From Streptomyces griseiscabiei (GTDB lineage Bacteria > Actinomycetota > Actinomycetes > Streptomycetales > Streptomycetaceae), in NCBI RefSeq assembly GCF_020010925.1, contig NZ_JAGJBZ010000001.1, forward strand, positions 372,001 to 436,000: a stretch of DNA of 64,000 nt. The letters are read 5' to 3'. A model generated the notes under the pieces. It was not told where the DNA came from. It did not search any database and saw nothing but the letters and a program-made list of their open reading frames with translations. Both the position numbers and the translations under genes were made by a program. Below, in pieces: positions 4,010 through 60,440 of the stretch (position 1 is the first letter of the stretch; every line of letters starts with the position of its first letter).

Positions 4010-5083
4010 TCAGGCGTCGCTCGTCGGCGGCGCTCCTGCCCAGGCGGCCATGAGGAGTCCTTCGACGCCGACGCGGGTGAGGGGCCGGGGGTTGGCGTAC
4101 TGACGGGCGAGAACGAGCTCGGCGATCCGCGGGATGTCCATCTCGCGCATGCCGAGTTCACCGAGGGACCTCGGTGCGCCGAGTCGGACGGCGAGTTCCC
4201 ACAACTCCCGGGCGGGATCCGGTGCACCGCCAAGGGCACGCGAGAGGACGGCGAGGGCCTGCGGTGCGGCTGGAGCGTTGTACGCCAGGGCGTGCGGCAG
4301 GACGACGGTGTGGGAGGGTGCGTGCGGTAGGTCGAGAGCGCCGCCGAGGGAGTGGCACAGCTTGTGGTGGAGCGACATCGTCGTGGCACCCAGCACGGCA
4401 CCGCACAGCCAGGCACCGTACTGGGCATCGGACCGGGCGTCGAGATCGCTGCCGTCGGCGACCACGGCGGGCAGCGCGGCGGTCAGCGCCCGGACACCCT
4501 CCTCCGCCATCAGCGAGACGACGGGTGTGGCGTCGGGGGCGTAGAGGCCTTCCACGGCGTGGGCGATGGCGTTCATGCCGCTGGTGAGCGACACCGGCGC
4601 CGGCAGTCCCACGGTGAGTTCGGGGTCGTAGAGGACGCTGCGCGGCAGGACCCGCGGGTCGCGGCCGGTGCGCTTCACCCCGGCCTCGGTCAGGCCCCAC
4701 ACCGGGGTCATCTCGGAGCCGGCGTAGGTGGTGGGCACGGCGATCACGGGCAGGCCGTGCTGGAAGGCGATCGCCTTGCCCAGGCCGATCGCGGAGCCGC
4801 CGCCGACGGCCACGCACCCATCCGCGCCCAGTTCCGTGACCCGCTCACCAGCGCGGGCGGCGACATCGGCCGGAACATGCATGCGAGCCTCGGCCAGCAC
4901 CCCGACCGCCCGTTGCCCCAACATGCAGGCGACGCGCCGACCGGTCCTCTCCTGGCCCGGCGTACACAGGACGAGCACCCGGTTCAGGCGCAGCCCGGCC
5001 ACCTCGTCGGGGAGTTGGGCCAGGGTTCCGGCGCCGAACAGCACCCGCATCGGCTGCGCCGTGTAGGTGAACGCGCGGGTCAC
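4010..5083 (-). CDS. macA: Maleylacetate reductase
   Basis: 357 residues, iron-type alcohol dehydrogenase fold. Visible are the nucleotide loop VAVGGGSAIGLGKA (91-104), PTTYAGSEMTP (117-127), the LHHKLCHSLGG metal/active-site block (238-248) and the second histidine motif VLPHALAYN (261-269), all characteristic of maleylacetate reductases. The enzyme reduces maleylacetate to 3-oxoadipate with NADH or NADPH, the step after ring opening of hydroxyquinol or chlorocatechols. The GTG start overlaps the stop of the intradiol dioxygenase by 4 bases (GTGA), so the two are translationally coupled consecutive steps of one pathway. It is the last gene of the leftward operon. Confidence 0.9.
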   Translation of the reverse strand: MTRAFTYTAQPMRVLFGAGTLAQLPDEVAGLRLNRVLVLCTPGQERTGRRVACMLGQRAVGVLAEARMHVPADVAARAGERVTELGADGCVAVGGGSAIGLGKAIAFQHGLPVIAVPTTYAGSEMTPVWGLTEAGVKRTGRDPRVLPRSVLYDPELTVGLPAPVSLTSGMNAIAHAVEGLYAPDATPVVSLMAEEGVRALTAALPAVVADGSDLDARSDAQYGAWLCGAVLGATTMSLHHKLCHSLGGALDLPHAPSHTVVLPHALAYNAPAAPQALAVLSRALGGAPDPARELWELAVRLGAPRSLGELGMREMDIPRIAELVLARQYANPRPLTRVGVEGLLMAAWAGAPPTSDA

Positions 5084-6042
5084 GACGGGACACCGGGGGC
5101 GGCCGTCGGCGCGGGCTCGGCCGGGTCGGCGCCGGACGGGGCCTGGTCCGTGCGCAGGAGGCTGATGTCGAAGGTCAGCGCGCGGAACGGGTTGGCCAGC
5201 CCGGCCTCGGTCGCGCGGGCCGGGTCGTCGACCTCCGCGACATCGCGGACGAGGCTCTCCTTGACGCCGAAGACCGCGTCGGAGTCCAGGTAGGGGCTGT
5301 CGGCGACGAACATGTGCGTGGTCACGCGCCGGTAGCCGGGTGCGTCGACGATAAAGTGCAGGTGCGCGGGGCGGTTCGGGTGTCTGCCGGTCGCGGCGAG
5401 CAGCTGGCCGACCGGGCCGTCGTCGGGGATGGGGTAGTAGCGCGGCACGACCGAGCGGAACCGGAAACGGCCCTGCTGGTCGGTGGTGAACAGTCCGCGC
5501 AGGTTGCCGGGCGGCTGGATGTCGGGCTGCTGGACGTCGTAGAAGCCGTCCTCGTTGGTCTGCCACACGTCCACCACCGCCCCGGCCAGCGGCTCACCCG
5601 CGGGGCCGGTCACCTGCCCCGACACCAGGCACGGGGTGCCCAGGCCGTCGAGTGCGATGTCGTCGCCCAGTTCCCGCGGCGGGGACTCCACCATGTGGAA
5701 CGGGCCCAGCACCGTGGATTCGGTGGCGGTGCCGCCGGTGCGGTTGTTTATCGTCTCCACCAGCATGGACACGCCCAGGACATCGGAGAGCAGGATGAAC
5801 TCCTGCCGGACGTCGGTGCACATGTGCCCGGCACGGGTGAGGAAGTCGATCGCGGTCTCCCATTCCCGCTCGGTCAGCTCCACGTCCTTGACGAACGCGT
5901 GCAGGTGGTGCACCAGCGAGGTCAGCACCTGCCGCAGCCGGGGGTCGGGGGTGTTCGCGAAGCTGGCGGCGACCGTCTCGGCCGACTTCTCCTCGCTGAA
6001 GTGCCCCCAGCGCGTCACGCCGTCGTCCCCTCCCTCGGTCAT
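5080..6042 (-). CDS. Intradiol ring-cleavage dioxygenase, hydroxyquinol 1,2-dioxygenase type
   Basis: 320 residues: N-terminal helical dimerisation domain (about 15-110), then the beta-sandwich catalytic domain. Non-heme Fe(III) ligands can be placed at Tyr168 (DGFYDVQ), Tyr202/203 (PRYYPIPDDGPVG), His227 and His229 (RPAHLHF). The PIPDDGPVG segment and the neighbouring maleylacetate reductase point to hydroxyquinol (1,2,4-trihydroxybenzene) cleavage to maleylacetate rather than catechol 1,2-dioxygenase. The ATG overlaps the upstream NTF2-fold gene as ATGA. An unusual Pro/Ala-rich tail of about 20 residues follows the core. Chlorocatechol as substrate cannot be excluded. Confidence 0.88.
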   Translation of the reverse strand: MTEGGDDGVTRWGHFSEEKSAETVAASFANTPDPRLRQVLTSLVHHLHAFVKDVELTEREWETAIDFLTRAGHMCTDVRQEFILLSDVLGVSMLVETINNRTGGTATESTVLGPFHMVESPPRELGDDIALDGLGTPCLVSGQVTGPAGEPLAGAVVDVWQTNEDGFYDVQQPDIQPPGNLRGLFTTDQQGRFRFRSVVPRYYPIPDDGPVGQLLAATGRHPNRPAHLHFIVDAPGYRRVTTHMFVADSPYLDSDAVFGVKESLVRDVAEVDDPARATEAGLANPFRALTFDISLLRTDQAPSGADPAEPAPTAAPGVPS

Positions 6043-6662
6043 GCCGGGGTCCCGGGGCTGTCCGCCCCGGCCAGCCATCCCGCGCCCTCGGCGTACAACT
6101 GCTCGACCGCGGGACCGGTGAGCCCGGGCAGGCCCTCCTTGACGGTGAAGCCGGCCTTGGTCTGCAGATATCCCAGGTGCTGGTAGCCGACGGGGAACCG
6201 GGCCAGCAGCTCGGGGTCCAGGCTGAGTTCGGCGACGGTGTCCACGGGGTCGAGCCGGTCCTTCTCGTAGATCGGCTGCCGCCGCACGATGGTCCACCTC
6301 CCGTCGTCGCGGGAGAGGAAGTCGTAGAAGCGACCGGTACACACGACGTCGACGAGGACACCGTCGACGGAGGCACGCTGGCTGATGGTCATCTTGGTCT
6401 GCGCGACGGCACGGCCACCGGCGATGTCGGCGGTGTGGCCTCCCAGGAAGTGCAGGATGCTCACGCCGTGCTCGAAGCCCTCCCGGCTGACCTTGATGAA
6501 CTCGGTCGCCGTGCCCTGGAACCACGTCGCGCTCATCCACCCCTTGCGCGGGTGCCAGACGGTGGCGAAGCGTTGCCAGTCCCCGGCATCACGCCAGACG
6601 GCCCAGTCCTCGATCAGCTGTCTGATCCGGAGACGATCCAGATCGAATTCCTTGTCCGACAT
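6039..6662 (-). CDS. NTF2/SnoaL-fold protein of the aromatic operon
   Basis: 207 residues from ATG 6662. LIEDWAVWRDAGDWQRFATVWHPRKGWM is the typical N-terminal helix pair of the NTF2-like (SnoaL_4) superfamily, whose cone-shaped cavity serves small enzymes, isomerases and dioxygenase small subunits. The C-terminal 60 residues (from about 150) extend beyond the usual fold. It is the first gene of an operon with the intradiol dioxygenase and maleylacetate reductase, joined by 4-base overlaps, so a direct role in feeding or converting the aromatic intermediate is likely, but its reaction is not predictable. An in-frame upstream ATG at 6707 is possible; 6662 is preferred because AAGAGCAGG precedes it. 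Confidence 0.75.
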   Translation of the reverse strand: MSDKEFDLDRLRIRQLIEDWAVWRDAGDWQRFATVWHPRKGWMSATWFQGTATEFIKVSREGFEHGVSILHFLGGHTADIAGGRAVAQTKMTISQRASVDGVLVDVVCTGRFYDFLSRDDGRWTIVRRQPIYEKDRLDPVDTVAELSLDPELLARFPVGYQHLGYLQTKAGFTVKEGLPGLTGPAVEQLYAEGAGWLAGADSPGTPA

Positions 6663-6743
6663 CGCCTGCTCTTGTCCGATCCCTCGCGTAACGGTCACGA
6701 CCGCCATGCTGCTGAACCGTCGTCGTTCGAACCAGGACTGGCC

Positions 6744-6756
6744 GCCACTCAGTGGC
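6744..6756. promoter_or_regulatory. Palindromic box GCCACTCAGTGGC upstream of the NTF2-dioxygenase operon
   Basis: A perfect 13-base palindrome (one central base) between the IclR gene and the first gene of the leftward operon. Near-identical boxes occur at the other promoters of this locus, so it is a candidate IclR operator. Confidence 0.6.
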
Positions 6757-6791
6757 AGGGGCCGGCGTGCGTCGCGGGGCCCGGCAGGCCG

Positions 6792-7553
6792 TCACAGTTC
6801 GCGGGCGGCACACACCCGGGAGACGCCCAGAGCCGCGGCCCGCACCGCGGGCGCCAGCCGTTCCAGACGCGCCCGAGAACGGGTGACGATGCCCAGAGCC
6901 GCGAGGACGCGGTCGTCGCGCCCCAGGACGGGGGCGGCGACGGAGACGGCCCCGAGGGTCATCTCCTCCTGCGAGAAGGCCAGACGCGCGCGGCGCACGT
7001 CCTGGAGCGAGCGCGCCAGACGCCCGGGCTCGGTCACCGTGAACCGGGTGATCCGTGGAAGCCCGTTGTGCAGCGTGGCCTGGAGGACCTCGGGGGGCGA
7101 CAACGCGAGCAGGACCTTGCCCACACCGGTCGCGTGCAGCGGAAGACGCCCTCCCACCACGGTCTTGGTCGATACCGCGCCCGCCGCCGAGATCCTCTCG
7201 ATGCACAGGGCTTCGAGCCCGTCCAGGACGACCAACTGGACGTTCTCCTGCGTGGCTTCGCACAGGTCCTGCATGAAGGGCAGCGCCGCGTCGCGCAGGT
7301 TCCGCTGCTGGGGTGCCAGGGATCCCAGCCGCCACAGTCGCAGGCCGACCCGGTAGCGCTGGTCGGGGAGCCGCTCGAGAGCGCCCCAGTCGGCGAGTTC
7401 CTTCAGCAGTCGCCTGCTCGTGGACAGCGGCAGGCCGGTGAGCGCGGCGACTTCAGTGAGGCTGAGTGTCGGCCGACTGATGTCGAAGGCCCCCAGTACG
7501 GCGAGCAGGCGGCTGGACACACTGCGTCCCGGCTCACTGGTGTTACCGGACAA
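6792..7553 (-). CDS. IclR-family regulator of the aromatic locus
   Basis: 253 residues from TTG 7553, chosen because GGGAGGTGG sits 5 bases upstream; an ATG at 7592 is the alternative. The N-terminal winged helix is seen in LSLTEVAALTGLPLSTSRRLLKEL, followed by the IclR effector domain with GGRLPLHATGVGKVLLA and the C-terminal VSVAAPVLGRDDRVLAALGIV. IclR proteins are dimeric repressors or activators that bind small aromatic or keto acids. It is flanked by the dioxygenase operon on one side and the ThDP enzyme on the other. Identical-type boxes occur at 6744, 7671, 9658 and 9721, so control of the whole 4-13 kb locus, and of itself, is a reasonable inference. Confidence 0.88.
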   Translation of the reverse strand: MSGNTSEPGRSVSSRLLAVLGAFDISRPTLSLTEVAALTGLPLSTSRRLLKELADWGALERLPDQRYRVGLRLWRLGSLAPQQRNLRDAALPFMQDLCEATQENVQLVVLDGLEALCIERISAAGAVSTKTVVGGRLPLHATGVGKVLLALSPPEVLQATLHNGLPRITRFTVTEPGRLARSLQDVRRARLAFSQEEMTLGAVSVAAPVLGRDDRVLAALGIVTRSRARLERLAPAVRAAALGVSRVCAAREL

Positions 7554-7670
7554 CGTCCACCTCCCTGGGCGTGCCGCCCCTGCGCGCCCCAATGGAACGA
7601 TGCCGGATCCGTTCGCCCCCCGGCCTCCGCCGTTTCGACCTCACCCTAGTGCGTGGGTGGCTAGAGGCCT

Positions 7671-7683
7671 ACCACTGAGTGGC
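7671..7683. promoter_or_regulatory. Palindromic box ACCACTGAGTGGC upstream of the IclR gene
   Basis: CCACT-G-AGTGG lies about 120 bases upstream of the IclR start, between that gene and the ThDP-enzyme stop. It matches the boxes at 6744 and 9721 and suggests autoregulation. Confidence 0.55.
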
Positions 7684-7713
7684 CGGCGGGGGCCGAGACC
7701 CACCTCCCCCGGC

Positions 7714-9354
7714 CTACTCGTGGTGAATGGCGTCGGCGAGGAACCAGCAGGGGAAGGACGCGATCTTCGCGTCGATCACCAACGGGGCGGCCCGCGGCCC
7801 GTCCAGCCAGGCCTTCACACCGCCGAGGTCGTCGACGCCGCGTACCGTGATCGCCTCGCATCCCACACCGCGTGCGATGGCGGCCAGGTCCGTCTGGGGG
7901 AACACGACGGCACTGAGGTCGAACCCGCCGTCCGCGAAGTGGTGGACTTCCGCGCCATAAGCGCTGTCGTTGTAGACGAGCACCACGAGAGGCAGGCGCA
8001 GCCGGACGGCTGTCTCCAACTCGCTCAGCCCCATGAGGAACCCTCCGTCGCCCACTCCGGCCACGGCCAGGCGATCCGGTCGGGCCAGAGCGGCTCCGAT
8101 ACTGCCGGACAGCCCCAGACCGACGGACATGAAGGCGAAGGACATGCAGAAGCCGTCGTTGTCGGGGACCGACAGGAACATGGAGGGGTAGCCGCAGAAG
8201 TTTCCGCTGTCGGGCACGACGACGCGCTCCCGGGGCAGGATGTCGTCGAGGGCGAACGACAGCGTGCGGGGATCGACGCAGTCCGCGTCGCCCTGGTCCT
8301 CGTAGGGCACGTTCCGCCAGCCGACGCGCGTCGCGATGGTCTCGTGCACCTCCGTCGTCCGGTACCCCGTCACGGCGTGGTCGGCTCGGTCGAGGGCATC
8401 GCCGACCTGGAGAGCCACGGCCGCGACGTCTGCGACGATCCCGAGATGCACCGGCCGATGACGTCCGATGGCGCCCGGATCGTCATCCACGTGGACGATC
8501 GTCGCCGCGGAACCGACGAGCGTCCCGTCGCGGGTGGTCCACCGGTTGAGGCTCGCTCCCCAGGCCACAATGAGGTCGGCGTCGGCGATGAGGGCCGCCG
8601 CGGCGGGTGAGGCGAAGCCACCCATGACGTCGACCGACCACGGGTCACCGGCGAACAGGCCGCGGGCGACAGCGCTCGTCGCCAGCAGCGCGCCGGACTG
8701 CTCGGCGAGGCGTCTGAGCGGGCCGGAGGCGTGGCGCGCGCCCCGACCGGCGACGAAGACCGGCCGACGGGCGTTCATCAGAGCCTGGCTGAGACGGTCG
8801 ACGGCCGCTGCGCTCGCCGCCGGTGCCTCCAGTTCCGGCAGCGGCGACACCGGGACGCCGTCGGGCACCTCGCGCTCCTGAACGTCCAGGGGCAGGTTGA
8901 CGACGATCGTCCGTCGTTCGTGCGCGGCCTGCCAGTACGCGCGAGCCACTTCCGACACCGCCGTGACCGGCGACGTGAGGGTGACGACCTCCGCCCCGAG
9001 GGCACGGATGACGGCCTCCTGGTCGATCCAGAAGTTGGAGGTGCGCTGCCAGGCCGGCGTGTCCCCGGCCAGGACCAGCAGTGGGGTCCGGCTCTTGGCC
9101 GCCTCGGTGATGCCGGTCAGCGCGTTGGTCAGGCCCGGCCCCTGGTGCAGGGACAGGGCGGCGACCCGGCCGGTCAGCCGAGCGTGGATGTCGGCCATCG
9201 TGGCCGCTCCGCCCTCATGGCGGGCGGCCACGAACCGGGCGCCGTGCCGGATCAGCGACTCCGTGACGTGGAAGTTGCCCGAGCCCACGACGCCGAACAC
9301 ATGGCTGACGCCGAGTCCGGCGAGCTCACGGCCGACAGCTTCTGCGACCTTCAT
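7714..9354 (-). CDS. Thiamine-diphosphate-dependent enzyme of the acetolactate synthase/decarboxylase family
   Basis: 546 residues from ATG 9354. The N-terminal pyrimidine-binding domain has the conserved Glu47 in AARHEGGAATMAD, the middle domain has VFVAGRGARH, and the C-terminal diphosphate domain has GVGDGGFLMG followed by LVVLVYNDSAYG, the GDG...N thiamine-binding motif. Relatives include acetolactate synthase, benzoylformate decarboxylase and sulfoacetaldehyde acetyltransferase. The reaction here is unknown; in an aromatic locus, decarboxylation or carboligation of an aryl 2-oxo acid is plausible. It is divergent from the O-demethylase operon across a control region with two IclR-type boxes. 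A 56-codon frame ends on its start codon (ATGA). Confidence 0.85.
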   Translation of the reverse strand: MKVAEAVGRELAGLGVSHVFGVVGSGNFHVTESLIRHGARFVAARHEGGAATMADIHARLTGRVAALSLHQGPGLTNALTGITEAAKSRTPLLVLAGDTPAWQRTSNFWIDQEAVIRALGAEVVTLTSPVTAVSEVARAYWQAAHERRTIVVNLPLDVQEREVPDGVPVSPLPELEAPAASAAAVDRLSQALMNARRPVFVAGRGARHASGPLRRLAEQSGALLATSAVARGLFAGDPWSVDVMGGFASPAAAALIADADLIVAWGASLNRWTTRDGTLVGSAATIVHVDDDPGAIGRHRPVHLGIVADVAAVALQVGDALDRADHAVTGYRTTEVHETIATRVGWRNVPYEDQGDADCVDPRTLSFALDDILPRERVVVPDSGNFCGYPSMFLSVPDNDGFCMSFAFMSVGLGLSGSIGAALARPDRLAVAGVGDGGFLMGLSELETAVRLRLPLVVLVYNDSAYGAEVHHFADGGFDLSAVVFPQTDLAAIARGVGCEAITVRGVDDLGGVKAWLDGPRAAPLVIDAKIASFPCWFLADAIHHE

Positions 9355-9521
9355 ACCGTCACCGCCTGCACTGAGCGGCACCCGCCCCGGGCCGGGTACG
9401 ACACCGGCGCCGTCGCCGTGAGCACGGCACTGCGGGGCGTGGAACCCGCAAGGAGGATGGCGGTCGCCGGCCGTGACCGTCCGGATGGATCGGGGTGGGC
9501 GGCACCGTGGGCAGGATTCAT
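9351..9521 (-). CDS. Small upstream frame coupled to the ThDP enzyme
   Basis: 56 residues, no recognised family. It is listed because an ATG at 9521 is preceded by GAAGGACGACC, a good ribosome site, and its TGA overlaps the ThDP-enzyme ATG as ATGA, the arrangement of coupled genes here. The sequence is Pro/Ala/Ser-rich without clear structure, so it may be a leader or chance. Confidence 0.3.
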   Translation of the reverse strand: MNPAHGAAHPDPSGRSRPATAILLAGSTPRSAVLTATAPVSYPARGGCRSVQAVTV

Positions 9522-9657
9522 GGTCGTCCTTCGTCGGAGGGGAACGGCGGCCACGACGGCGTTCGGGGGCCCGTCGTCCGCCCTGCCTGCCCGGGTTGGG
9601 CGGTTTCAGCGGAAGCGCAGTCTTGGAGCCTCACGAGGTGGACGTCCAGGCATCAGT

Positions 9658-9733
9658 GCCACTGAGCAGCAGAGCGCGGAGAACCACCGGATCACTCGGC
9701 AGGCGGCGACCCGGACTGCTGCCGCTCAGTGGC
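9658..9733. promoter_or_regulatory. Two IclR-type boxes in the divergent control region
   Basis: GCCACTGAGCAGC (9658-9670, 11 of 13 matches) and GCCGCTCAGTGGC (9721-9733, 12 of 13 matches) resemble the box at 6744. They are 63 bases apart, six helical turns, and lie between the ThDP enzyme and the O-demethylase. The 9355-9845 gap otherwise holds only the small frame at 9351-9521 and presumed promoters. Confidence 0.55.
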
Positions 9734-9845
9734 AGCCGACGCTTCGCTCCGCTTGTCAAGCGGTCCTACCGTCGCTGCAAACCGGTGACGCCCTCGTCGC
9801 CCGACCTGAGCCCTGCACCTCCACCGACGAGAAGGGCGACCCTCC

Positions 9846-11120
9846 GTGGACGTCAGCAGTATGCGTACAACCCCGCAAGGACACTTCACGTCGAGATGGG
9901 GTCTGCCGGAGTACACCGACTGGCAGGACGAGAGCATGTCGTGGAAGGAGACGTGCTACATCGGCGACTGGTCGTTCCTGTGGGAGCGGCGTTACCGCGG
10001 TCCCGAGGTGCTCAAGCTGTTCTCCGACTACTCGGTGAACAGCTTCGCGAAGTTCGACCTGGACCAGTCCAAGCACGTCGTCCACTGCAACCAGAACGGG
10101 AAGGTGATCCACGAGGGGATCCTCAGCCGGGTCGGCGAGGAGGAGTTCGTCCTCTTCGGCCGCGGTACCTTCCTGATGGACCACCACCTGCGCAGGGGCA
10201 GGTACAACGTGTCCTCGGAGGTCCTCGACCTGCACGTCCTGCAGGTCTCCGGGCCGACCGCCGTGCACGTCGTCGAGAAGGCCGCCGGGGAGTCGCTGCG
10301 CGACGTGAAGTTCATGCACTCACGCACGATCCGCGTGGGCGGACACGAGGTGCGTGCCCTGCGCCAGGGCATGGCCGGAGAGATCGGCTTCGAGTTGCAG
10401 GGCCCGAGTGAGAACACCGAGGACGTCGTGGCAGCGATCCTGGAGGCGGGCGAGGAGTTCGGGATCCGGCGGCTCGGCGGCCGGACGGTGTTCATCAACC
10501 ACCTGGAGGCCTGCTTCCCGACGATCATCACCGACTATCTGCCGGCCATGTACGGCGACGACATGGCGGAGTACCGCGAGGAGTTCCTGGCGGCGATGCC
10601 GGCGGCGTCGGCGACCTTCAACATCGCCGGCAGCTTCGAGTCCGACGACGTCAGCGACTGGTACCGCTCCCCCGTCGAGCTCGGCTGGGGGAACCGGATC
10701 AGGTTCGACCACGACTTCGTGGGGCGCGCCGCCCTCGAGGTGGAGAAGGCCGCCCCGCGACGGGTGATGCGCACGCTGGTGTGGAACGCCGACGACGTCG
10801 CCGACGTCTACGGGTCGCTGTTCCGGTCGGGGACGCCCTACGACTACATGGAGATCCCCCGCGACCAGCGCGGGTTCGCGTGGAACGACCAGGTGCTCGT
10901 CGGCGACAGCCTCGTCGGGGCCGCGACGTCGCGCGGGTACAGCTACTACTTCCGCGAGATGCTGTCGCTCTGTGTCATCGACGTCGCCCACAGCGAACCC
11001 GGTACCCCGGTCGAGGTGCTCTGGGGGAACCCGGGCAGCCCGCAGAAGCGCATCCGCGCGACCGTCGCGCCGGCGCCGTACAAGCAGGACAACCGCCGAG
11101 CCGACCTCTCCTCGTCGTGA
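9846..11120 (+). CDS. Tetrahydrofolate-dependent aromatic O-demethylase (LigM/GcvT family)
   Basis: 424 residues of the aminomethyltransferase (GcvT) fold. Blocks match the Sphingobium vanillate/3-O-methylgallate demethylases LigM and DesA: a tryptophan-containing start followed by YRGPEVLKLFSDYSVNSF, LRQGMAGEIGFELQGPSE, RFDHDFVGRAALE, then VLVGDSLVGAATSRGYSYY and the C-terminal VAPAPY. These enzymes move the methyl group of an aryl methyl ether to THF, giving 5-methyl-THF and a phenol. The start is GTG 9846 with GAAGGG upstream; ATG 9861 lacks a ribosome site. The purU gene follows after 31 bases, consistent with folate C1 recycling. Other GcvT-like demethylases (dimethylglycine, DMSP) are less similar in these blocks. 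Confidence 0.82.
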   Translation: MDVSSMRTTPQGHFTSRWGLPEYTDWQDESMSWKETCYIGDWSFLWERRYRGPEVLKLFSDYSVNSFAKFDLDQSKHVVHCNQNGKVIHEGILSRVGEEEFVLFGRGTFLMDHHLRRGRYNVSSEVLDLHVLQVSGPTAVHVVEKAAGESLRDVKFMHSRTIRVGGHEVRALRQGMAGEIGFELQGPSENTEDVVAAILEAGEEFGIRRLGGRTVFINHLEACFPTIITDYLPAMYGDDMAEYREEFLAAMPAASATFNIAGSFESDDVSDWYRSPVELGWGNRIRFDHDFVGRAALEVEKAAPRRVMRTLVWNADDVADVYGSLFRSGTPYDYMEIPRDQRGFAWNDQVLVGDSLVGAATSRGYSYYFREMLSLCVIDVAHSEPGTPVEVLWGNPGSPQKRIRATVAPAPYKQDNRRADLSSS

Positions 11121-11151
11121 CCGGTCCGGCCCACCTCACCCGGAGAACCTC

Positions 11152-12063
11152 ATGACCGCAACCCCGACCGCGCTGCCCCTGCAGCGCGCCACCCCCGCCG
11201 CCCGGACCGGTGCGGATCACGGCCGGCTGCTGATCCAGTGCCAGGACCGGGCCGGAGTGGTCTCGGCGGTGAGTACGTTCCTCACGGCGGCCGGGGCGAA
11301 CATCGTGTCGCTGGACCAGTTCTCCACCGCCGCGGAGGACGGGGCGTTCTTCCAGCGCACCGAGTTCCACCTGCCCGGTCTGAGCGCCGCCCGCGACGAG
11401 TTGGAGCGGACCTTCGCCACGGACGTGGCCGAGAGGTTCGGCATGGAGTTCCGGCTGACCGAGAAGACGAAGCCCAAACGTGTGGCGATCATGGTGTCCA
11501 AGACCGACCACTGCGTGCTGGACCTCCTCTGGCGGCATCGGCGCGGCGAGCTGGACATGAACGTCGCTCTCGTGATCTCCAACCACCCCGACCTGGCCGA
11601 TGAGGTCCGCCCGTTCGGGATTCCGTACTTCCACATTGCCGCGACCCGGGACAACCGGCCCGAGGCCGAGGCACGGATCTTGGAGCTGTTGCGCGGAAAC
11701 GTCGATCTGGTGGTACTGGCCCGCTACATGCAGATCATCACGCCGGATTTCCTCGACCGCGTGGACTGCCCGCTGATCAACATCCACCACTCGTTCCTGC
11801 CCGCGTTCATCGGCGCCGGCCCCTACCAGCGGGCCAAGGAACGTGGCGTCAAGCTCATCGGAGCCACCGCCCACTACGTCACCGCCGACCTGGACGAGGG
11901 CCCGATCATCGAACAGGACGTCGTCCGCGTCGACCACGGGCACACCGCCACCGACCTGGTGCGCCTCGGCGCCGACGTCGAACGCGCCGTGCTGTCCAGA
12001 GCCGTGCGCTGGCACCTGGAGGACCGGGTCGCCCGGCACGGCAACACCACCATCGTCTTCTGA
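11152..12063 (+). CDS. purU: Formyltetrahydrofolate deformylase
   Basis: 303 residues. An N-terminal ACT domain (LLIQCQDRAGVVSAVSTFL, about 25-100) is followed by a formyltransferase-type catalytic domain with KRVAIMVSKTDHCVLDLLWR, LARYMQIITPDFLD and the catalytic INIHHSFLPAF histidine motif; DEGPIIEQDV closes the active site. PurU hydrolyses 10-formyl-THF to formate and free THF. GGAG lies 6 bases before the ATG. Placed directly behind a THF-dependent demethylase, its likely job is to drain the C1 units loaded on folate and regenerate THF, rather than the usual role in purine synthesis. Confidence 0.93.
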   Translation: MTATPTALPLQRATPAARTGADHGRLLIQCQDRAGVVSAVSTFLTAAGANIVSLDQFSTAAEDGAFFQRTEFHLPGLSAARDELERTFATDVAERFGMEFRLTEKTKPKRVAIMVSKTDHCVLDLLWRHRRGELDMNVALVISNHPDLADEVRPFGIPYFHIAATRDNRPEAEARILELLRGNVDLVVLARYMQIITPDFLDRVDCPLINIHHSFLPAFIGAGPYQRAKERGVKLIGATAHYVTADLDEGPIIEQDVVRVDHGHTATDLVRLGADVERAVLSRAVRWHLEDRVARHGNTTIVF

Positions 12064-12135
12064 CGCGCATCCGCAACCACAGCACTCATCGTCGAACGGC
12101 CACCACCACATCAACGAGGATTGGGGACAGGGACC

Positions 12136-12975
12136 ATGAGCATGCGCACGAACACGGCCGACCCCGGCCTGCCGACCACGGCCGCGGAGGTCAACTACGC
12201 CGTCGACACCGGCGGCCGGGGAAGGTTCGACGTGGTCGAGCCCGAACGCACCAACCTCCGCCTCGACGCGACGCCGGTGCGGATCGCCGACGCCCGGCCC
12301 GCCCTGAGCGACCTGGATCTCATGCGGGACGGGTACACGCTCGTCGACCATCACAGCGCCGTGACCTCGGCCGACGACAAGCAGCTGTTCGAGACGGTGT
12401 ACCTGGACGAGATGAGCTCGTTGATCCAGCGGATCACGGGCGCACGGGAGGTCCGGCCTCAGCGCAGTACCACGTTCGTCCGCAAGAACGAGTGGACGGC
12501 CGAGGGCGGGATCGGCCCCGTCCGCTACACCCACCTCGACTACACCCCGCTCAGCGTCGAGTCATGGCTCAAGCTGTCGGAGGAGGACGACGGTCCGATC
12601 GCCCCCTTCCGACGGGTCGTCATCGTCCAGGCCTGGCGTGCGCTGTCCGAATCCCGGCAGGAGAGCTCACTGGCACTGATCGATCCGGCCACCATGGACT
12701 ACGACGACGACACCATGGTGTTCGACGCCCGGTTCGGCCCGGAGGAGTTTCCGTCGTGCTTCTTCGAGCTCAGGCTGGTGAAGAGCAACCCCGCTCACCG
12801 TTGGCTGCACTTCGACTCGATGAAACCGGACGAGGTCCTGCTGTTCCAGGGATATGACTCCGACAAGCGTTCGGGCAGCGGCGTCGCGCACACCGCCTTC
12901 GACCGCCCCGCGGGCACCCCGGGCCTCGTGCCGCGGCACAGTGTCGAAGCGCGGTTCCTGGCGTTCTTCGAGTAG
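12136..12975 (+). CDS. CmcJ/NvfI-type oxidoreductase
   Basis: 279 residues. Recognisable family blocks are VNYAVDTG near the start, RYTHLDYTPLSVE, a VIVQAWRAL block, HRWLHFDSMKPDEVLLFQGY and C-terminal VAHTAFDRPAGTPG with VEARFLAFFE. This matches the CmcJ (cephamycin), AsaB and NvfI group, non-heme iron and 2-oxoglutarate type hydroxylases or desaturases mostly known from secondary metabolism. It is the third gene of the operon with the O-demethylase and purU, so it may hydroxylate or desaturate an aromatic or its side chain. The substrate is unknown. An ATG at 12142 is an alternative start. Confidence 0.75.
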   Translation: MSMRTNTADPGLPTTAAEVNYAVDTGGRGRFDVVEPERTNLRLDATPVRIADARPALSDLDLMRDGYTLVDHHSAVTSADDKQLFETVYLDEMSSLIQRITGAREVRPQRSTTFVRKNEWTAEGGIGPVRYTHLDYTPLSVESWLKLSEEDDGPIAPFRRVVIVQAWRALSESRQESSLALIDPATMDYDDDTMVFDARFGPEEFPSCFFELRLVKSNPAHRWLHFDSMKPDEVLLFQGYDSDKRSGSGVAHTAFDRPAGTPGLVPRHSVEARFLAFFE

Positions 12976-16451: not shown

Positions 16452-17390
16452 TCATCGTGAACAGGTCCGCAGGACCTGCTCGATGCCCGCGTCGTCCAGG
16501 GCGATCGGCCGGGTCCCGGGGGCCGCGGCCTGCATCAGGCGGGCCAGTACCCGCCCCGGTGGCATCTGGACGGCACGGGTCACGCCGAGTTCGGCGAGCA
16601 CCCGCGTCGCGTCGTACCACCGCACCGGACGGGCGACGGAGCGTGCGAGGTCGTCGAGCACGGCAGCGGCGTCTTCGCGGACGCGCCGGCCTCGCACGTT
16701 GGTCAGGTAGGGCACCCGCTGCGGGCGGCGGGGCACGCCGGTGAGATGTCCGGCCAGGCGTTCGGCGACGGGTTCCTGCAAGGGGCAGTGCGACGCGACG
16801 GTCACCTCCAGGCGCTTCCAGCGACGCGCGCCCAGGCCGGGCGCGGCCGACTCCGCCCGCCCCAGGGCCGTCGCCGTACCGGACAGGACGATCTGGTCCG
16901 CGGCGTTGACGTTGGCCACCCACAGAGGGTCGTCCGCGGTGCTCACCCGTTCGGTGAGGGTCCGTGCGTCGCGCGCGCCCAGTCCGAGTACGGCGGCCAT
17001 GCCCCACTGGCCGTCGGCGCAGACCCGCCGCATGAGTTCGCCCCGCAGGTGCACGGCCCCGATCGCCTCCTCGAAGGTCAGGACGCCCGCTGTGACGGCG
17101 GCGGCGAACGCGCCGACGGAGTGACCGGCCACGAGGTCCGGGCGCAGACCGTGCTCCTCGGTGAGGACGCGGGCCGCCGCCACTCCGGCGATGAGCAGGG
17201 CCAGTTGGGTGTACGTCGTGACGCGCAACGCCTCGGGAGTGTCCAGCGTGTCCGGGTCCCGGGCGCCGATCCGGTGGAGCGCAGTCGCCGCCTCGCCGAG
17301 CGTCTCGGCGACCTCGGGAGAGGTCGGCAACGCGTGCAGCATGCCCGGGCGTTGGGACCCTTGTCCGGGGTAGAGGAAGGCGAGGCTCAT
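16452..17390 (-). CDS. mdcH: Malonate decarboxylase malonyl transferase subunit
   Basis: 312 residues of the acyltransferase (FabD-like) fold: N-terminal FLYPGQGSQRPGM, nucleophile elbow GHSVGA (89-94, Ser91) and the His-containing VASHCPLQEP (198-207). MdcH transfers malonyl groups from malonyl-CoA to the thiol of the MdcC carrier to prime malonate decarboxylase. The ATG overlaps the mdcG stop as ATGA. It is the last of the mdc genes. Confidence 0.92.
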   Translation of the reverse strand: MSLAFLYPGQGSQRPGMLHALPTSPEVAETLGEAATALHRIGARDPDTLDTPEALRVTTYTQLALLIAGVAAARVLTEEHGLRPDLVAGHSVGAFAAAVTAGVLTFEEAIGAVHLRGELMRRVCADGQWGMAAVLGLGARDARTLTERVSTADDPLWVANVNAADQIVLSGTATALGRAESAAPGLGARRWKRLEVTVASHCPLQEPVAERLAGHLTGVPRRPQRVPYLTNVRGRRVREDAAAVLDDLARSVARPVRWYDATRVLAELGVTRAVQMPPGRVLARLMQAAAPGTRPIALDDAGIEQVLRTCSR

Positions 17391-18010
17391 CCCGCCGTCT
17401 CCCGGGCGACGGTGACCAGGCGCGGACCGTCGGCGGTACGCAGCAGGACCTCGGTCGTCGACGCGGCGAGATCCCCCAGTGCCACGGCGCCTTGATCGGT
17501 TTCGATCAGGCAGTCGACGCGCGCGGGCAGTTCCCCGAGTGCGGCGTGGAGGCGTTCCGCCACGCCGCGGATCGGCAGTCGCGCACTGCGGATCAGCAGG
17601 TCCAGATCGCTCGTGGCCGTCACCGCGGGCATCCCGGTGGCCAGTTCGAACCCCACACTGCCGGTCGGCCCCCACGGCAGGTCGACGCACCCCTGGATCA
17701 ACGAGGCGGCGGCGTGCAGCGTGTGAAGCGCCGGAAGGTCCCGGTTCGCTCTGCCGAGACGCGTGGCGAGTTCCTCGGGGCGGAGCGCCTCGGCCACCCA
17801 TTCGGCGGGGATCTCCAGGGCGCAACGCAGTGCCCGTACCGGTCCGCAGACGCCGACGGCGATCCGGTCGGCCGCTGTCGCCGGGGCCCGGCGGACGACG
17901 ACCCAGGGGGTGGTGGCCAAGGCTGAGGCCACCCAGACCGGGGTGCCGACGGGCAGGACGCTCCGCCGCCGGGACAGGCGCAGCAGGTCGTGCGGGCGTA
18001 CCGCGGTCAT
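17387..18010 (-). CDS. mdcG: Phosphoribosyl-dephospho-CoA transferase
   Basis: 207 residues. The nucleotidyltransferase-like motif TATSDLDLLIR, preceded by WGPTGSVGFELATG, marks MdcG, which attaches the 2'-(5''-phosphoribosyl)-3'-dephospho-CoA prosthetic group to a serine of MdcC. The start at ATG 18010 is chosen because it overlaps the mdcDE stop as ATGA; an in-frame start 9 bases upstream exists. Neighbours make the identification firm. Confidence 0.9.
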   Translation of the reverse strand: MTAVRPHDLLRLSRRRSVLPVGTPVWVASALATTPWVVVRRAPATAADRIAVGVCGPVRALRCALEIPAEWVAEALRPEELATRLGRANRDLPALHTLHAAASLIQGCVDLPWGPTGSVGFELATGMPAVTATSDLDLLIRSARLPIRGVAERLHAALGELPARVDCLIETDQGAVALGDLAASTTEVLLRTADGPRLVTVARETAG

Positions 18011-19704
18011 GCTCGCCACTGTGCGGCCATCCTGTCCCGGACCCGGCGCGACGCGGCACGGGCGGTGACCGCCGCCGCGGAGTCCAGTCGGCCCGAGAGA
18101 TCGCCCGCTCCGGTACGGGCGTCCTCGATCGCCCGTGCCACCGCGTGGCGAACGCTCGCCACGTCCTCGGGCGTCGGGTTGTCAGCGTTCCGCACCGGCA
18201 GGAGTCCGTCGCAGAAGCCCAGGCGCGCCCAGTCCCGCACCCGGTAGCTCAGCGGCAGGATCTTCTGGGCGAGTTCGGCGAGTTCCTCGACGGAGCGCAG
18301 GGTGACACGCGCCGCGGCGGCCTGGTGCATGGCGTGGATCTCCACACCGGGGTCGTCCAGGGCGAGGATCCGCTGTGCCTGCAGGCCGTGGGCGAGGAAG
18401 CCGCCGGACAGCGCACGGCCGACGACGAGAGTGACCACGGGGTGACCGTCCCGGCGCGCGCTCGCGCAGGCGTCGACCGCCGCGGCGATCGCCTGGTGCA
18501 GTCCCGCCATCTCCTCGATCCGGCCGTATGCCTGGCTCGGCAGGTCCACCACCGCGACGACGGCCCGTCGGTGCCCGGTCCGCGCGTCCTCGGAGACGAT
18601 GTCCCGCACGGTCCGGGCGAGGGCAACGCATTCGGCCAGTCCGACCTCGCCGCCGCGGGCGCGGTGGAACGGGGCGGACGGATCGGGGACGACCGCCAGG
18701 TACACGGCGTCGGGGGTGTCCGCGCGTACGACCGAGGGGATGACCGGGGTCGGCTCGCCGCCCAGGGCGGCGAGCCAGGCCAGGCCGCGGCTTGGACCGC
18801 CCACGTCCACGCGGCGCTGCCGCGGACCGGGGTGGTCATGGGTGCCAGCCCTCTCGAAGAGGGCTCGGAGTTCGAACGGTGTCGGCGGATGCGCGGGATC
18901 CAGCGCATCCACGCACGCGGCCAGGACGTCGAGCCGCTCGCTGCGGTGCTGACCGGGGTCGGTGACACCGGCGGCCACAGCCGCCGTGACGGCGCGGCGC
19001 AACGCGTCGGCGTCGTCGGGCACAAGTGTGTCGGCCTGACCGATCGCGTGGCGTTGCGCACCACCGTGGACGGCCCAGATCAGGGGGCGGTCGGACGCGT
19101 CGAACTCGGCCGGTCCGGCTTCCTGCTCGATGACCGCGGGGCCGTTGAGCCCCAGCCTGCCCTGCGGGGTCATGATCAGACGGGTGCAGAGCCCGGCGAC
19201 GATGCCGAGGCCGCCGAAGCAGCCGACCTGACCGGCCACGACGCCGATCACCGGGGCGAGTTCACGCAGCTCCAGCACGGCGGAGCAGATCTCGGCGACC
19301 GCGTTGAGGCCGAGGTTGGCCTCGTGCAGGCGGACCCCTCCGGTCTCCAGGAGCAGCACGGCCGCCGTCGGTACACCGGCACGGCAGTCGGCGGCGGCCA
19401 GCAGCAGTGCCTGGCTGATCTTCGCGCCGGAGACCTCGCCGATGCCGCCTCCGAGGAACCCCTGCTCGATCGAGACGACGACGACCCGGGCTCCGTCGAT
19501 GGTGCCGCGCAGGACGACCACGCCGTCGTCCGCCTGCGGGACCATGCCCTGGGGCTCCAGCCAGGGCGACTCCAGGTGGTCGAAGGGATCGCACACCTCC
19601 CGGCCCGACCCGCCGTCCACCAGGGCGTGGGCCCGGGCGCGGGCGTCGTACTCGATGAAGCTGCGGCGGGTGAGAACCTGCCGCCAGTCGGTGCCTGTGC
19701 TCAC
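18007..19704 (-). CDS. mdcDE: Malonate decarboxylase beta-gamma fusion (MdcD-MdcE)
   Basis: 565 residues. The first part (about 1-285) is MdcD, with carboxyltransferase features LLLETGGVRLHEAN and GCFGGLGIVAGL; the second (about 300-565) is MdcE, starting near RGLAWLAALGG and containing GRALSGGFLAHGLQA with IHAMHQAAAARVT. In Klebsiella and Acinetobacter the two are separate genes; here they are one open frame without internal stop. The complex decarboxylates malonyl-S-carrier to acetyl-S-carrier and CO2. GTG start overlaps the mdcC stop as GTGA. Confidence 0.92.
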   Translation of the reverse strand: MSTGTDWRQVLTRRSFIEYDARARAHALVDGGSGREVCDPFDHLESPWLEPQGMVPQADDGVVVLRGTIDGARVVVVSIEQGFLGGGIGEVSGAKISQALLLAAADCRAGVPTAAVLLLETGGVRLHEANLGLNAVAEICSAVLELRELAPVIGVVAGQVGCFGGLGIVAGLCTRLIMTPQGRLGLNGPAVIEQEAGPAEFDASDRPLIWAVHGGAQRHAIGQADTLVPDDADALRRAVTAAVAAGVTDPGQHRSERLDVLAACVDALDPAHPPTPFELRALFERAGTHDHPGPRQRRVDVGGPSRGLAWLAALGGEPTPVIPSVVRADTPDAVYLAVVPDPSAPFHRARGGEVGLAECVALARTVRDIVSEDARTGHRRAVVAVVDLPSQAYGRIEEMAGLHQAIAAAVDACASARRDGHPVVTLVVGRALSGGFLAHGLQAQRILALDDPGVEIHAMHQAAAARVTLRSVEELAELAQKILPLSYRVRDWARLGFCDGLLPVRNADNPTPEDVASVRHAVARAIEDARTGAGDLSGRLDSAAAVTARAASRRVRDRMAAQWRA

Positions 19705-20018
19705 GGCTGCTCCTCAGAGGTGTCGGTAGCGGCCTCCGCGGCCTGGCCGAGCCTCAGCGCGACCACTCCGGGGGTGGCGCCGGAGTCGTTCAGATCCCAG
19801 TGGCCGGCCAGTGGGACGCGGGCGAAGAAACGCTCGAGCACCTGGCCCCACACGGTGTCGAAGCCGTCGACGCTGGTGCGTACCCGAACCTCGGCGTACG
19901 CGACGGACGTGGTCGGGGGCACGAGAAGGATCTCGAGGTCACCGGAGGCGACGACGCCGGTGTGGACCGGCCGTACCGGCACCCGGTCAGCGGGGAAACG
20001 GTAGACGAGTGTCTGCAT
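19701..20018 (-). CDS. mdcC: Malonate decarboxylase acyl carrier protein
   Basis: 105 residues, the delta subunit. The attachment serine is Ser25 in GVVASGDLE, which carries the phosphoribosyl-dephospho-CoA arm made by MdcB and MdcG. Malonyl and acetyl groups ride on this arm. The start lies inside the end of mdcB (32-base overlap), and its stop overlaps the start of mdcDE. Confidence 0.9.
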   Translation of the reverse strand: MQTLVYRFPADRVPVRPVHTGVVASGDLEILLVPPTTSVAYAEVRVRTSVDGFDTVWGQVLERFFARVPLAGHWDLNDSGATPGVVALRLGQAAEAATDTSEEQP

Positions 20019-20907
20019 GGGAACGCGTGTGTCCTTTCACTGCCGGAGGGGTCTTCGGGGCCGCCGGGAGGGAGTCGAGGAAGAGCGCGGCGGCGAGCAG
20101 GTCGGCGCTGCCGCCCGGGGACAGGCGCCGGGACAGTGCCAGAGCGTCGAGTTCGGACAGCCGCCGTCGGCCGGCGGGATCGGCGGTGCCTCCGACGGCC
20201 AGGACGTCTGCCGCACCTCGCTGGATGATCGCGAGTCCGGCGGGCCCACCTCGGTGCAGCACGCAGGTGTCCGGCAGATGGGCCATCACGGACAGCAGGG
20301 CGTCCAGCCGCGCGCTGGTCTCGTCCGCGCCGCGAGCCCGCGCCCGCCGCAGCATGGGCAGCGCATGGCCCGTCACGTGGGGAAAGCCCGCCGCCGCCTC
20401 ACCGCGCGCGCCCGGCGCACCGTAGCGACGGCCCGCCCCGGCGCCGTGGGAGGTCCCCTGAGCGGGTGGCACCGCCGAGTCCGGCAGCCGGGCCAGGCCC
20501 GCGGCGAAACGTACGGCGTCGCCGATGCCGTGCCGCCGGGCGGCGCCCGCGGCAAGGAGCCCTACGGCCCACAGTGCGCCCCGGTGTGTGTTGACGCCGC
20601 CGGTGACCTGGAGCATCTGGCGCTCCCCGGCCCGGCCGGCGGCTCCGATCCGCGCGCGGAGTTCCGGCCCGAGGGGCAGTTCGACGGCCAGTCGGGCGCA
20701 GTGGGCGAACGCGCCGCGCAGGGCGTCCGCCGATCTCACCAGCAGGGCGTGGTCCATGTCGGTGTGGGCGCCGTTGTCGCGCGGGTCGACCAGGCCCGGT
20801 TTGGGGGCGAGGTCGGCTTCCGCGCGCAGCGCGGCCACGGCCAGGTCGGCGACGGCGTCCGGGGTGGGTGTGCGAGCCCCGGTGTGACGTTGCGGCACGG
20901 TGCTCAC
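19987..20907 (-). CDS. mdcB: Triphosphoribosyl-dephospho-CoA synthase
   Basis: 306 residues. CitG/MdcB-type motifs are ADLAPKPGLVDPRDNGAHTD (31-50), VTGGVNTHRGALW (101-113) and GTSHGAGAGRRYG with GARGEAAAGF (151-175). It makes the precursor of the MdcC prosthetic group from ATP and dephospho-CoA. GTG start overlaps the mdcA stop (GTGA). The C-terminal 25 residues past the conserved core overlap mdcC. Confidence 0.92.
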   Translation of the reverse strand: MSTVPQRHTGARTPTPDAVADLAVAALRAEADLAPKPGLVDPRDNGAHTDMDHALLVRSADALRGAFAHCARLAVELPLGPELRARIGAAGRAGERQMLQVTGGVNTHRGALWAVGLLAAGAARRHGIGDAVRFAAGLARLPDSAVPPAQGTSHGAGAGRRYGAPGARGEAAAGFPHVTGHALPMLRRARARGADETSARLDALLSVMAHLPDTCVLHRGGPAGLAIIQRGAADVLAVGGTADPAGRRRLSELDALALSRRLSPGGSADLLAAALFLDSLPAAPKTPPAVKGHTRSHADTRLPFPR

Positions 20908-22565: not shown

Positions 22566-22672
22566 GGATCCTCTTTCGTCGCATGCGGCGTCACCGCGCC
22601 GCTGGTGTGGACCCCCTGACTCGAATTCTTGGAGATACCGGTGGGGTAGGCGAATGCACTCGTACGCACTGC

Positions 22673-22691
22673 TTATACTGTAAGTACATAA
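22673..22691. promoter_or_regulatory. LysR-type box TTAT-N11-ATAA
   Basis: TTAT (22673-22676) and ATAA (22688-22691) flank 11 bases with an inner TGTA-AG-TACA near-palindrome. This is the canonical T-N11-A LysR box, lying between mdcA and the divergent regulator in an otherwise GC-rich region. Confidence 0.65.
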
Positions 22692-22736
22692 CGGCTGCGC
22701 CTGCTGTACTTCGCGGCGCATCACCCGAGGCGGCAC

Positions 22737-48067: not shown

Positions 48068-48122
48068 GGGACTCCTTTGCGTGCTTGAGGGCGTGGGCGT
48101 CAGCCGCACGGGTCAGTGGACG

Positions 48123-54011: not shown

Positions 54012-54117
54012 CGCGTCAGGTAGACGGTGGCTCTCCGCGTCAGGCAAGGGCGCTCGGGGCAGGCGCGCTCGCGTCAGGCAGGCTCGCCTCGCGTCAGGGA
54101 GGGGTGCTCGCGTCAGG
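54012..54117. repeat. Five copies of CGCGTCAGG
   Basis: Copies start at 54012, 54036, 54070, 54090 and 54109, between the converging hydrolase and IclR genes. The last overlaps the IclR stop codon, so the IclR 3' end seems to have been duplicated in part. Confidence 0.65.
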
Positions 54118-54913: not shown

Positions 54914-54930
54914 GGTCGCAGGCTCATGGG

Positions 54931-54964
54931 CCCACCGGACAGGAAGATGTCCGCCCACCGGACA
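54931..54964. promoter_or_regulatory. Candidate IclR operator with CCCACCGGACA repeats
   Basis: CGGACA (54936-54941) and TGTCCG (54948-54953) form a perfect 6-6-6 dyad. The element CCCACCGGACA occurs at 54931 and 54954, 23 bases apart. It lies just upstream of the IclR start, in front of the divergent ThDP-enzyme gene. Confidence 0.55.
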
Positions 54965-55121
54965 TCGTGCTGACGTCGGTTTGCGTCGGCGTCGACGATG
55001 TGGACCGGCCTTCCGCCTCTCGCACGGCCTTCTCCCTCGGATCCCTGTCGGCGTTGCCCGCAGGTTCGTCCGTGGTACCGGTCGCAGCTTTCGCCGACCA
55101 TCGGCGAGAAAGGGACCTTGG

Positions 55122-56744: not shown

Positions 56745-56801
56745 CGAGACACCCGCAGGCCATCACCCCCTCCTCACCCCGCAAAGGAAAGGACATCCGC
56801 C

Positions 56802-58259: not shown

Positions 58260-58276
58260 GACAGGGGAGGATCCCG

Positions 58277-60393: not shown

Positions 60394-60399
60394 TCCCAC

Positions 60400-60440
60400 A
60401 GGTCGGCCGGGCTGCTCCGTGAGGACGGCCCGGCCGACCT
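60400..60440 (+). terminator. Terminator of the vanAB operon
   Basis: A perfect 13-bp stem, 60400-60412 with 60428-60440 (15-base loop), beginning 6 bases after the vanB stop. Confidence 0.75.

Follow-up and report, generated by a model that had tools for sequence, protein, structure and literature searches.

The window analysed here, a 64,000-nucleotide stretch of the 10.6-Mb genome of Streptomyces griseiscabiei, contains between positions 4010 and 12975 a cluster of eight genes in which, in the reading that we favour with modest confidence, a tetrahydrofolate (THF)-dependent demethylenase is coupled to the opening of hydroxyquinol. The cluster would serve as a catabolic regulon for a small methylenedioxyphenol, in the simplest case sesamol (3,4-methylenedioxyphenol) or a compound converted to sesamol. 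Its GcvT-like enzyme would transfer the methylene bridge of the 1,3-benzodioxole to THF, yielding 5,10-methylene-THF and a catechol, which would be hydroxyquinol if sesamol were the substrate. FolD, encoded elsewhere in the genome, could convert 5,10-methylene-THF to 10-formyl-THF, from which PurU would produce formate and THF, while hydroxyquinol 1,2-dioxygenase (HQD) would open the ring to maleylacetate and maleylacetate reductase (MAR) would convert this to 3-oxoadipate. A single IclR regulator is proposed to act on both divergent units of the cluster through sites of the form GCCACTSAGTGGC, and we guess that a CmcJ-type oxygenase is a hydroxylase supplying or positioning the third hydroxyl. 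The evidence consists of gene identities, operator repeats, the clade and residue pattern of the GcvT-like enzyme and a missing linkage to MetF, all of them observed in the sequence. The substrate is what we infer, and sesamol itself is a possibility that we rate appreciably below an even chance.

The cluster comprises two units that face each other across a divergent gap. On the plus strand lie the genes for the GcvT-like THF-dependent enzyme, here proposed to be a methylenedioxy demethylenase (9846..11120; PF01571), for the formyltetrahydrofolate deformylase PurU, which would recycle THF (11152..12063; TIGR00655, 397 bits against a cut-off of 286), and for the CmcJ/NvfI family oxygenase (12121..12975; NF041278, 205 bits against a cut-off of 80). 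The minus-strand set of five encodes a thiamine diphosphate (ThDP)-dependent enzyme of the acetolactate synthase/decarboxylase superfamily (7714..9381; PF02776/PF00205/PF02775), an IclR-type regulator (6792..7592; PF01614/PF09339), a SnoaL_4/NTF2-fold protein (6039..6707; PF13577), an intradiol dioxygenase of the hydroxyquinol 1,2-dioxygenase type (5080..6042; PF00775/PF04444) and an MAR of the Fe-ADH family (4010..5083; PF25137/PF00465), for which we chose the GTG start at 5083; the SnoaL, HQD and MAR frames overlap successively by 4 bases. A preliminary description of this DNA had listed a demethylase-type gene, PurU, the ThDP enzyme, the NTF2-fold protein, the intradiol dioxygenase and MAR, and domain and profile matches place all of them, uninterrupted, where it had put them; the IclR regulator (6792-7592, minus strand) and the CmcJ/NvfI oxygenase (12121-12975, plus strand) were missing from its gene set.

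Conversion of hydroxyquinol through maleylacetate to 3-oxoadipate is a well-founded predicted capacity of the locus because of the scores of the dioxygenase and the reductase against solved relatives. The top five solved relatives of the dioxygenase score 324-253 bits (8r2x, 3n9t and 1tmx are the best), and the best catechol 1,2-dioxygenase scores 139 bits. Three of these five are deposited as (chloro)hydroxyquinol dioxygenases, one as PnpC, which we take to be a hydroxyquinol dioxygenase, and one under a domain name only. The reductase matches the solved MARs 3hl0 and 3w5s at 347 and 346 bits, its top solved relative (432 bits) being named merely iron-containing alcohol dehydrogenase. Both defining members of a hydroxyquinol ring-cleavage module, a hydroxyquinol-type dioxygenase and an MAR, are thus present.

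The preliminary description called the GcvT-like enzyme LigM-like, and this is right at the level of the superfamily, as LigM is its best solved relative (220 bits), but does not extend to the LigM group itself: the protein reaches 272 of the 580 bits set as cut-off for the NCBIfam LigM model and 289 of 800 for DesA. The column of LigM Tyr247, which we take to be the catalytic tyrosine, holds Val215 in the window protein, so that the tyrosine expected of LigM and DesA is absent. Four residues past Val215, in the motif RTVFINHLE, His219 aligns with H225 of the sesamin demethylenase SesA. A methyl-transferring catalytic tyrosine is mentioned, with no residue number in the passages drawn on here, by PMC9296663. 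In SesA, R81, H82, R100, R179 and H225 are the expected proton donors and D95, E189 and Y221 the predicted THF contacts; all BrdA demethylenases are described as keeping the donors except R81, Y221 is named as kept in BrdA1 and BrdA2 of strain BD3100, and the BrdA of BD7100 keeps D95 (PMC5547118). The corresponding residues of the window protein are, by alignment, K76, H77, E90, R95, R173, E183, V215 and H219. The published donor set H82/R100/R179/H225 is matched by H77, R95, R173 and H219, and the window protein shows the BrdA pattern, which lacks R81. This match was made from published positions and spacing in a relative of the window protein (L027), in which the spacings of H82, R100, R179, E189 and H225 fit gap-free, and was carried to the window by alignment.

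To sort the family we called copies with His and no Tyr at the columns of Val215 and His219 window-type, and those with Tyr and no His LigM-type; because these two columns did the sorting, type counts at them are definitions and not tests. The H82 column lies outside the sorting and agrees with it: all 67 window-types, the window protein among them, have His there, and 39 of 40 LigM-types have Gln. In a maximum likelihood tree of 133 proteins, built by a quick method with supports judged against a mark of 95, the 49 LigM-type rows group together (support 100), as do the remaining 84 (100), which include the window protein; it lies inside a set of 35 rows (99), and its sister is a protein from a Rhizobiaceae assembly (L002), with a support of 88 that is under the mark. 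Two window-type proteins carry the BrdA pattern with D95 included, one from an Arthrobacter genome (L038) and the other (L040) of unsure source, its assembly being titled Rhodococcus but labelled Cyanobacteriota in the tree.

The family extends to unexpected hosts. Haloarchaeal loci (L031, L036, L039, L042, L048, L052 and L053) hold GcvT-like copies of several types, and a haloarchaeal group of three rows with His at the H82 column and Gln at the H225 column possibly represents a further activity. Window-type enzymes are also encoded in Desulfotomaculaceae, Formimonas, Cuneatibacter, Synergistaceae and Prevotella assemblies (L014, L016, L032, L035 and L041), the L014 and L016 copies being 63% identical to the window protein; if these enzymes are demethylenases, they would permit methylenedioxy rings to be opened in the absence of oxygen.

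An enzyme that removes a methyl group forms 5-methyl-THF, which re-enters the folate cycle via MetF, while one that removes a methylene group forms 5,10-methylene-THF, which needs FolD and PurU only. In Sphingobium SYK-6, ligM lies within a ligM-metF-ligH operon (PMC6888825), LigM works with methylenetetrahydrofolate reductase running in reverse (PMC12585457), and Pseudomonas KT2440 supplied with LigM is described as requiring co-expressed MetF and LigH for growth on vanillate (PMC12997858). We counted such partner genes within 10 kb of each GcvT-like copy in a non-random set of 106 loci, consisting of the window, 51 loci from one scan of named genomes, 44 from further genomes and 10 of 83 plasmid records. 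MetF was searched for with the genome's own MetF and with three MetF proteins annotated beside GcvT-like plasmid genes, the genome's own MetF locus serving as positive control; a search with the first of these queries alone found no MetF in any group, which is a false negative. The counts leave out L056-L087, L089-L112 and L141-L166 (mostly refetched short stretches or loci from other genes), L137 and L138 (contigs of L019 and L018), L020-L022 (near-copies of L023) and GcvT-like frames of fewer than 330 residues; GcvT-like copies in L057, L058, L074, L079 and L165 are absent from them, and the plasmid loci L214 and L215, taken for CmcJ, stand outside the set.

The 106 loci hold 132 GcvT-like copies, comprising 71 window-types, 48 LigM-types, 10 with both Tyr and His and 3 with neither. 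MetF lies near 19 of the 48 LigM-types and 7 of the 71 window-types (0/10 and 0/3 for the remaining classes), and all 7 of these window-types share their locus with a LigM-type copy that is closer to a MetF. Counted by locus, MetF is present in 11 of 29 with LigM-types only, in 7 of 11 with both and in none of the 66 without a LigM-type (Fisher 4e-7 for 11/29 versus 0/66). When only loci having PurU or FolD are considered, the figures are 10/14 for LigM-type-only loci versus 0/25 for those without a LigM-type, and after collapse at 70% identity and removal of copies on the window's (His-bearing) side that share a LigM-type locus they are 13/25 versus 0/38 (p 5e-7). Because MetF is absent from 66 window-side loci even though 25 of them have PurU or FolD, the folate product is probably methylene-THF and the enzyme probably a demethylenase. 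We thus infer methylene rather than methyl chemistry, and the gene context speaks against 5-methyl-THF as the product. A rule that separates demethylases from demethylenases by the His column and MetF appears to be new.

Regulation provides a second line of evidence. The palindrome GCCACTSAGTGGC is present in all three intergenic gaps of the cluster: an exact operator-like site, GCCACTCAGTGGC, lies upstream of SnoaL-HQD-MAR (6744..6756), a site with one mismatch between the ThDP and IclR genes, upstream of the latter (7671..7683), and two further sites in the divergent gap, one with two mismatches (9658..9670) and one with a single mismatch upstream of the GcvT-like gene (9721..9733). Those at 6744, 7671 and 9721 are the only sites in the window at one mismatch or fewer, and three were reached in 0 of 100 window shuffles. 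Of the 15 such sites in the whole genome, 3 fall in the cluster, which also holds one of the two exact sites; a reversed control pattern has 28 sites in the genome. Because the motif was first found in the window, a locus of another Streptomyces (L135), whose IclR protein is 56% identical and has SnoaL, HQD and MAR nearby, is the more independent test. There, four sites at two mismatches or fewer fall between 11270 and 12617, adjoining the called IclR frame (11768-12595) or reaching slightly within its ends, and three of them are the only sites at one mismatch or fewer in 530 kb of genus loci. In L124 (IclR 64% identical) there are three weaker sites with two mismatches each, two of them just upstream of IclR, and L113, L114, L116 and L121 (IclR 43-45% identical) have no operator sites. 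A looser 11-base motif is no commoner than chance in the window (25 found, 24 expected), and the case for an operator is accordingly made from the 13-base motif at one mismatch or fewer together with L135. The IclR protein, whose nearest model is that of PcaR/PcaU/PobR (TIGR02431, 153 bits, under the cut-off of 285), stands near this group without being a member; it may bind the candidate GCCACTSAGTGGC operators and thereby control both divergent units.

Parts of the gene set recur elsewhere. In four loci a copy on the window's side of the family has both HQD and MAR within 10 kb, namely in the window, L002, L012 (Croceicoccus bisphenolivorans) and L129 (Streptomyces G350, where a copy with both Tyr and His stands beside FolD, HQD and MAR). 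In L191 there is MAR without HQD, and in L030 (Pseudomonas insulae) HQD without MAR, the copy in the latter being flanked by HQD, PurU, FolD and two CmcJ genes, with P450-like, ferredoxin-reductase-like and FAD proteins in the vicinity. MAR was found in none of the 29 LigM-only loci. Given the operator motif common to the divergent units and the reappearance of parts of the set in other genomes, the coupling of a THF-dependent, C1-removing enzyme to hydroxyquinol opening, which the preliminary description had proposed, is now stronger than it could show.

Within the genus, 23 of 392 genomes, this one among them, have a relative of the GcvT-like protein at E <= 1e-60; outside this genome the best near-full-length one is 64% identical, and the closest relatives overall are mostly proteobacterial. 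SnoaL (E <= 1e-25) is found in 16 of 384 genus genomes, again counting this one; HQD and MAR accompany SnoaL in 14 of the 18 SnoaL loci that were fetched, and a GcvT relative in none. At the same threshold CmcJ is found in this genome only. It is likely that a demethylenase operon was acquired and placed under the regulator of a hydroxyquinol module that is common in Streptomyces. SnoaL, MAR and HQD relatives also form a Streptomyces module in L113-L121, with a Rieske oxygenase, a reductase and an aldehyde dehydrogenase in its vicinity in L113. Since the ThDP homologues near SnoaL-HQD loci elsewhere are just 26-28% identical, we draw no role for the ThDP enzyme from them. CmcJ was considered as a conserved partner of the GcvT-like enzyme and rejected, as two CmcJ plasmid loci (Sphingomonas JE1 and Paraburkholderia, from 3 records found) have no GcvT gene within 9 kb.

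Several observations weigh against a sesamol-type demethylenase coupled to ring opening. Among the eight genes there is neither a dedicated ring hydroxylase nor a transporter, and no FolD is encoded within the cluster, the two copies lying elsewhere in the genome. PurU and FolD were rejected as evidence of methylene chemistry, as they occur about as often near LigM-types (17/48 and 18/48) as near window-types (30/71 and 20/71), and since 18 of the 29 LigM-only loci also lack MetF, little can be read from its absence at one locus. In 5 of these 29 loci, HQD-like matches of 29-46% identity are found close to LigM-type copies. When palindromes in general were tested by permuting the gaps, the outcome was not significant, as the observed 5 was reached by 25 of 300 shuffles. 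The D95 column is Glu in the window protein and in 64 of 67 window-types, and we know of no assayed enzyme from the window protein's own subclade. All 31 rows at least 55% identical, window included, have Arg at the column of LigM R122, presumably a carboxylate contact (an earlier alignment had put Gly there in L030); an acid such as piperonylate would fit this better than sesamol. The likeness to SesA and BrdA is drawn from published positions and spacing, and the source gives the roles of these residues as expected or predicted (PMC5547118).

The conserved arginine counts in favour of an alternative that overlaps with our preferred reading and that we consider rather unlikely, in which the demethylenase acts on an acid, converting piperonylate to protocatechuate. 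Oxidative decarboxylation, preceding or following this step and possibly catalysed by the CmcJ-type oxygenase, would bring the acid to the hydroxyquinol level. The title of one paper names a hydroxyquinol route for protocatechuate in Rhodococcus RHA1. We know of no CmcJ-family enzyme that performs such a decarboxylation, CmcJ matches at E <= 1e-25 are found in 0 of the other 383 genus genomes, and no protocatechuate dioxygenase is present among the eight genes. Three Streptomyces loci (L017, L028 and L128) carry in a row an RPE65-type oxygenase, a hydrolase, an aldehyde dehydrogenase, an amidohydrolase_2, a window-type GcvT and PurU, the genes of L017 and L028 being called by identity to L128, which was given the domain search; this row looks like a separate aryl-alkene route and suits conversion of an aryl-alkene through an aldehyde to an acid, so that piperonylate-like substrates are plausible in that subclade. 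PipA of Rhodococcus ruber is likewise described as preferring piperonylic acid (PMC12753220).

The same arginine, the rank of LigM as best solved relative and the presence of HQD and MAR would also fit a LigM-like O-demethylase acting on methoxyhydroquinone or a similar methoxyphenol ahead of the same operons, with hydroxyquinol and 5-methyl-THF as its products, as the preliminary description supposed; fungi make methoxyhydroquinone from vanillate, and some are proposed to carry it on to hydroxyquinol (PMC8336404). We consider methoxyphenol O-demethylation improbable. The scores lie far under the LigM and DesA cut-offs, and because the enzyme falls in a clade other than LigM's, has Val in place of the catalytic Tyr, carries demethylenase residues and has no MetF on its side of the family (0/66 loci), this assignment is probably wrong. 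That two unrelated operons merely adjoin, one being a SnoaL-HQD-MAR module common in Streptomyces that serves another substrate and the other a GcvT-PurU-CmcJ operon that was acquired, would agree with the distribution of their parts (SnoaL in 16/384 genus genomes with a GcvT relative at 0/18 fetched SnoaL loci, CmcJ in just 1/384, and the mostly proteobacterial GcvT relatives); we judge it quite improbable, given that the operator motif is common to both units and that HQD and MAR stand beside related enzymes in other phyla. The extension of the clade to haloarchaea, and to assemblies named as anaerobes (L014, L016, L032 and L035) with 0 probe genes within 10 kb, raises the further thought that window-type enzymes take a formaldehyde-level C1 unit from a donor other than a benzodioxole. 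With residues that match the demethylenases, and with aromatic ring-opening genes adjoining the window copy, this is very improbable here.

In a pairwise alignment the HxD motif and a later His and Arg of the CmcJ-family protein align with those of NvfI, which we take to be ligands of iron and co-substrate, and the ThDP enzyme is above no NCBIfam cut-off among the matches listed (25 of 53 families). Five flanking genes that were searched for domains (cytidine deaminase-like, AAA/zeta-toxin-like kinase, aldo/keto reductase, RIO kinase and GDSL hydrolase) look unrelated to the cluster. Elsewhere in the window, ORF translations read by eye indicate a malonate-decarboxylase-like gene set (16452-22736) and a hydantoinase/oxoprolinase A and B type pair (44259-48109). 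A second aromatic-catabolism stretch (54113-63660), read from ORF translations only, has an IclR protein, a benzoylformate-decarboxylase-like ThDP enzyme, an aldehyde dehydrogenase, a VanA/VanB-like Rieske oxygenase with its reductase and a ring-hydroxylating dioxygenase alpha/beta pair.

Methylenedioxyphenyl groups protect many plant defence compounds, such as sesamin, piperine, berberine and safrole, and to our knowledge little is known of how bacteria complete the breakdown of these groups once the bridge has been removed. If a demethylenase is indeed coupled to hydroxyquinol opening here, the locus ties bridge removal to ring opening in one regulon, and the His-column/MetF rule could be applied to genomes for telling THF-dependent demethylases from demethylenases, two enzyme types that are annotated alike, e.g. 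as 'aminomethyltransferase family protein' on plasmid records. THF-dependent enzymes of this superfamily have precedents among actinomycetes, contrary to what the preliminary description implied. BrdA has been described in Rhodococcus and Arthrobacter, and SesA in Sinomonas (PMC5547118); Dmt06, a dicamba demethylase, has an identical counterpart in Actinomadura (PMC9404685); and on a plasmid of Rhodococcus opacus a LigM-type gene is found next to MetF, PurU and FolD. A review states that hydroxyl radicals presumably convert sesamol to hydroxyquinol (PMC7914952); we came across no report of an enzyme catalysing this conversion and, in the open-licence literature, none of a demethylenase joined to hydroxyquinol ring opening. 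A paper on piperine (PMC12753220) was considered as precedent for the coupling and rejected, the sole match to 'hydroxyquinol' in the portion consulted being 8-hydroxyquinoline in a list of chemicals. The parts are thus individually known, and their joining appears to be new. That the locus represents a complete sesamol-type route from folate-dependent demethylenation to hydroxyquinol, a demethylenase operon captured by an IclR regulator and a CmcJ enzyme at work in an aromatic pathway, with the residue motif and MetF rule holding across bacteria and archaea, we propose tentatively, at slightly under an even chance.

The hydroxyquinol pathway is usually fed by a monooxygenase acting on resorcinol-, nitrophenol- or chlorophenol-type substrates. 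HQD and MAR are likewise present here, adjacent and overlapping, whereas the module is linked to a THF enzyme. LigM and DesA of Sphingobium SYK-6 share with the window protein the GcvT family and THF as acceptor, and LigM is its nearest solved structure; they differ in their catalytic Tyr, the Gln at the H82 position, the MetF partner, the 5-methyl-THF product and their separate clade. PipA, a methylenetransferase of Rhodococcus ruber No. 14, reportedly uses THF as well. Compared by description, it resembles the window enzyme in acting on a small benzodioxole, piperonylate, in an actinomycete and within a catabolic cluster, although the cluster described begins from piperine (PMC12753220). SesA of Sinomonas sp. 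no. 22 opens a methylenedioxy ring in a THF-dependent manner and has H82, R100, R179 and H225 in common with the window protein, but it has R81 and Y221 where the window protein has K76 and V215, and its substrate is a lignan (PMC5547118). BrdA, the berberine demethylenase of Rhodococcus, Arthrobacter, Burkholderia and Sphingobium, differs in its substrate, in the D95 of the BD7100 protein, where the window protein has Glu, and in that hydroxyquinol genes are not linked to it in the cited portions of its source paper (PMC5547118). Also compared by description, BrdA is, like the window protein, GcvT-like and THF-dependent, its hosts include actinomycetes, and it has the same H82/R100/R179/E189/H225 set without R81, with Y221 named in two members only (PMC5547118).

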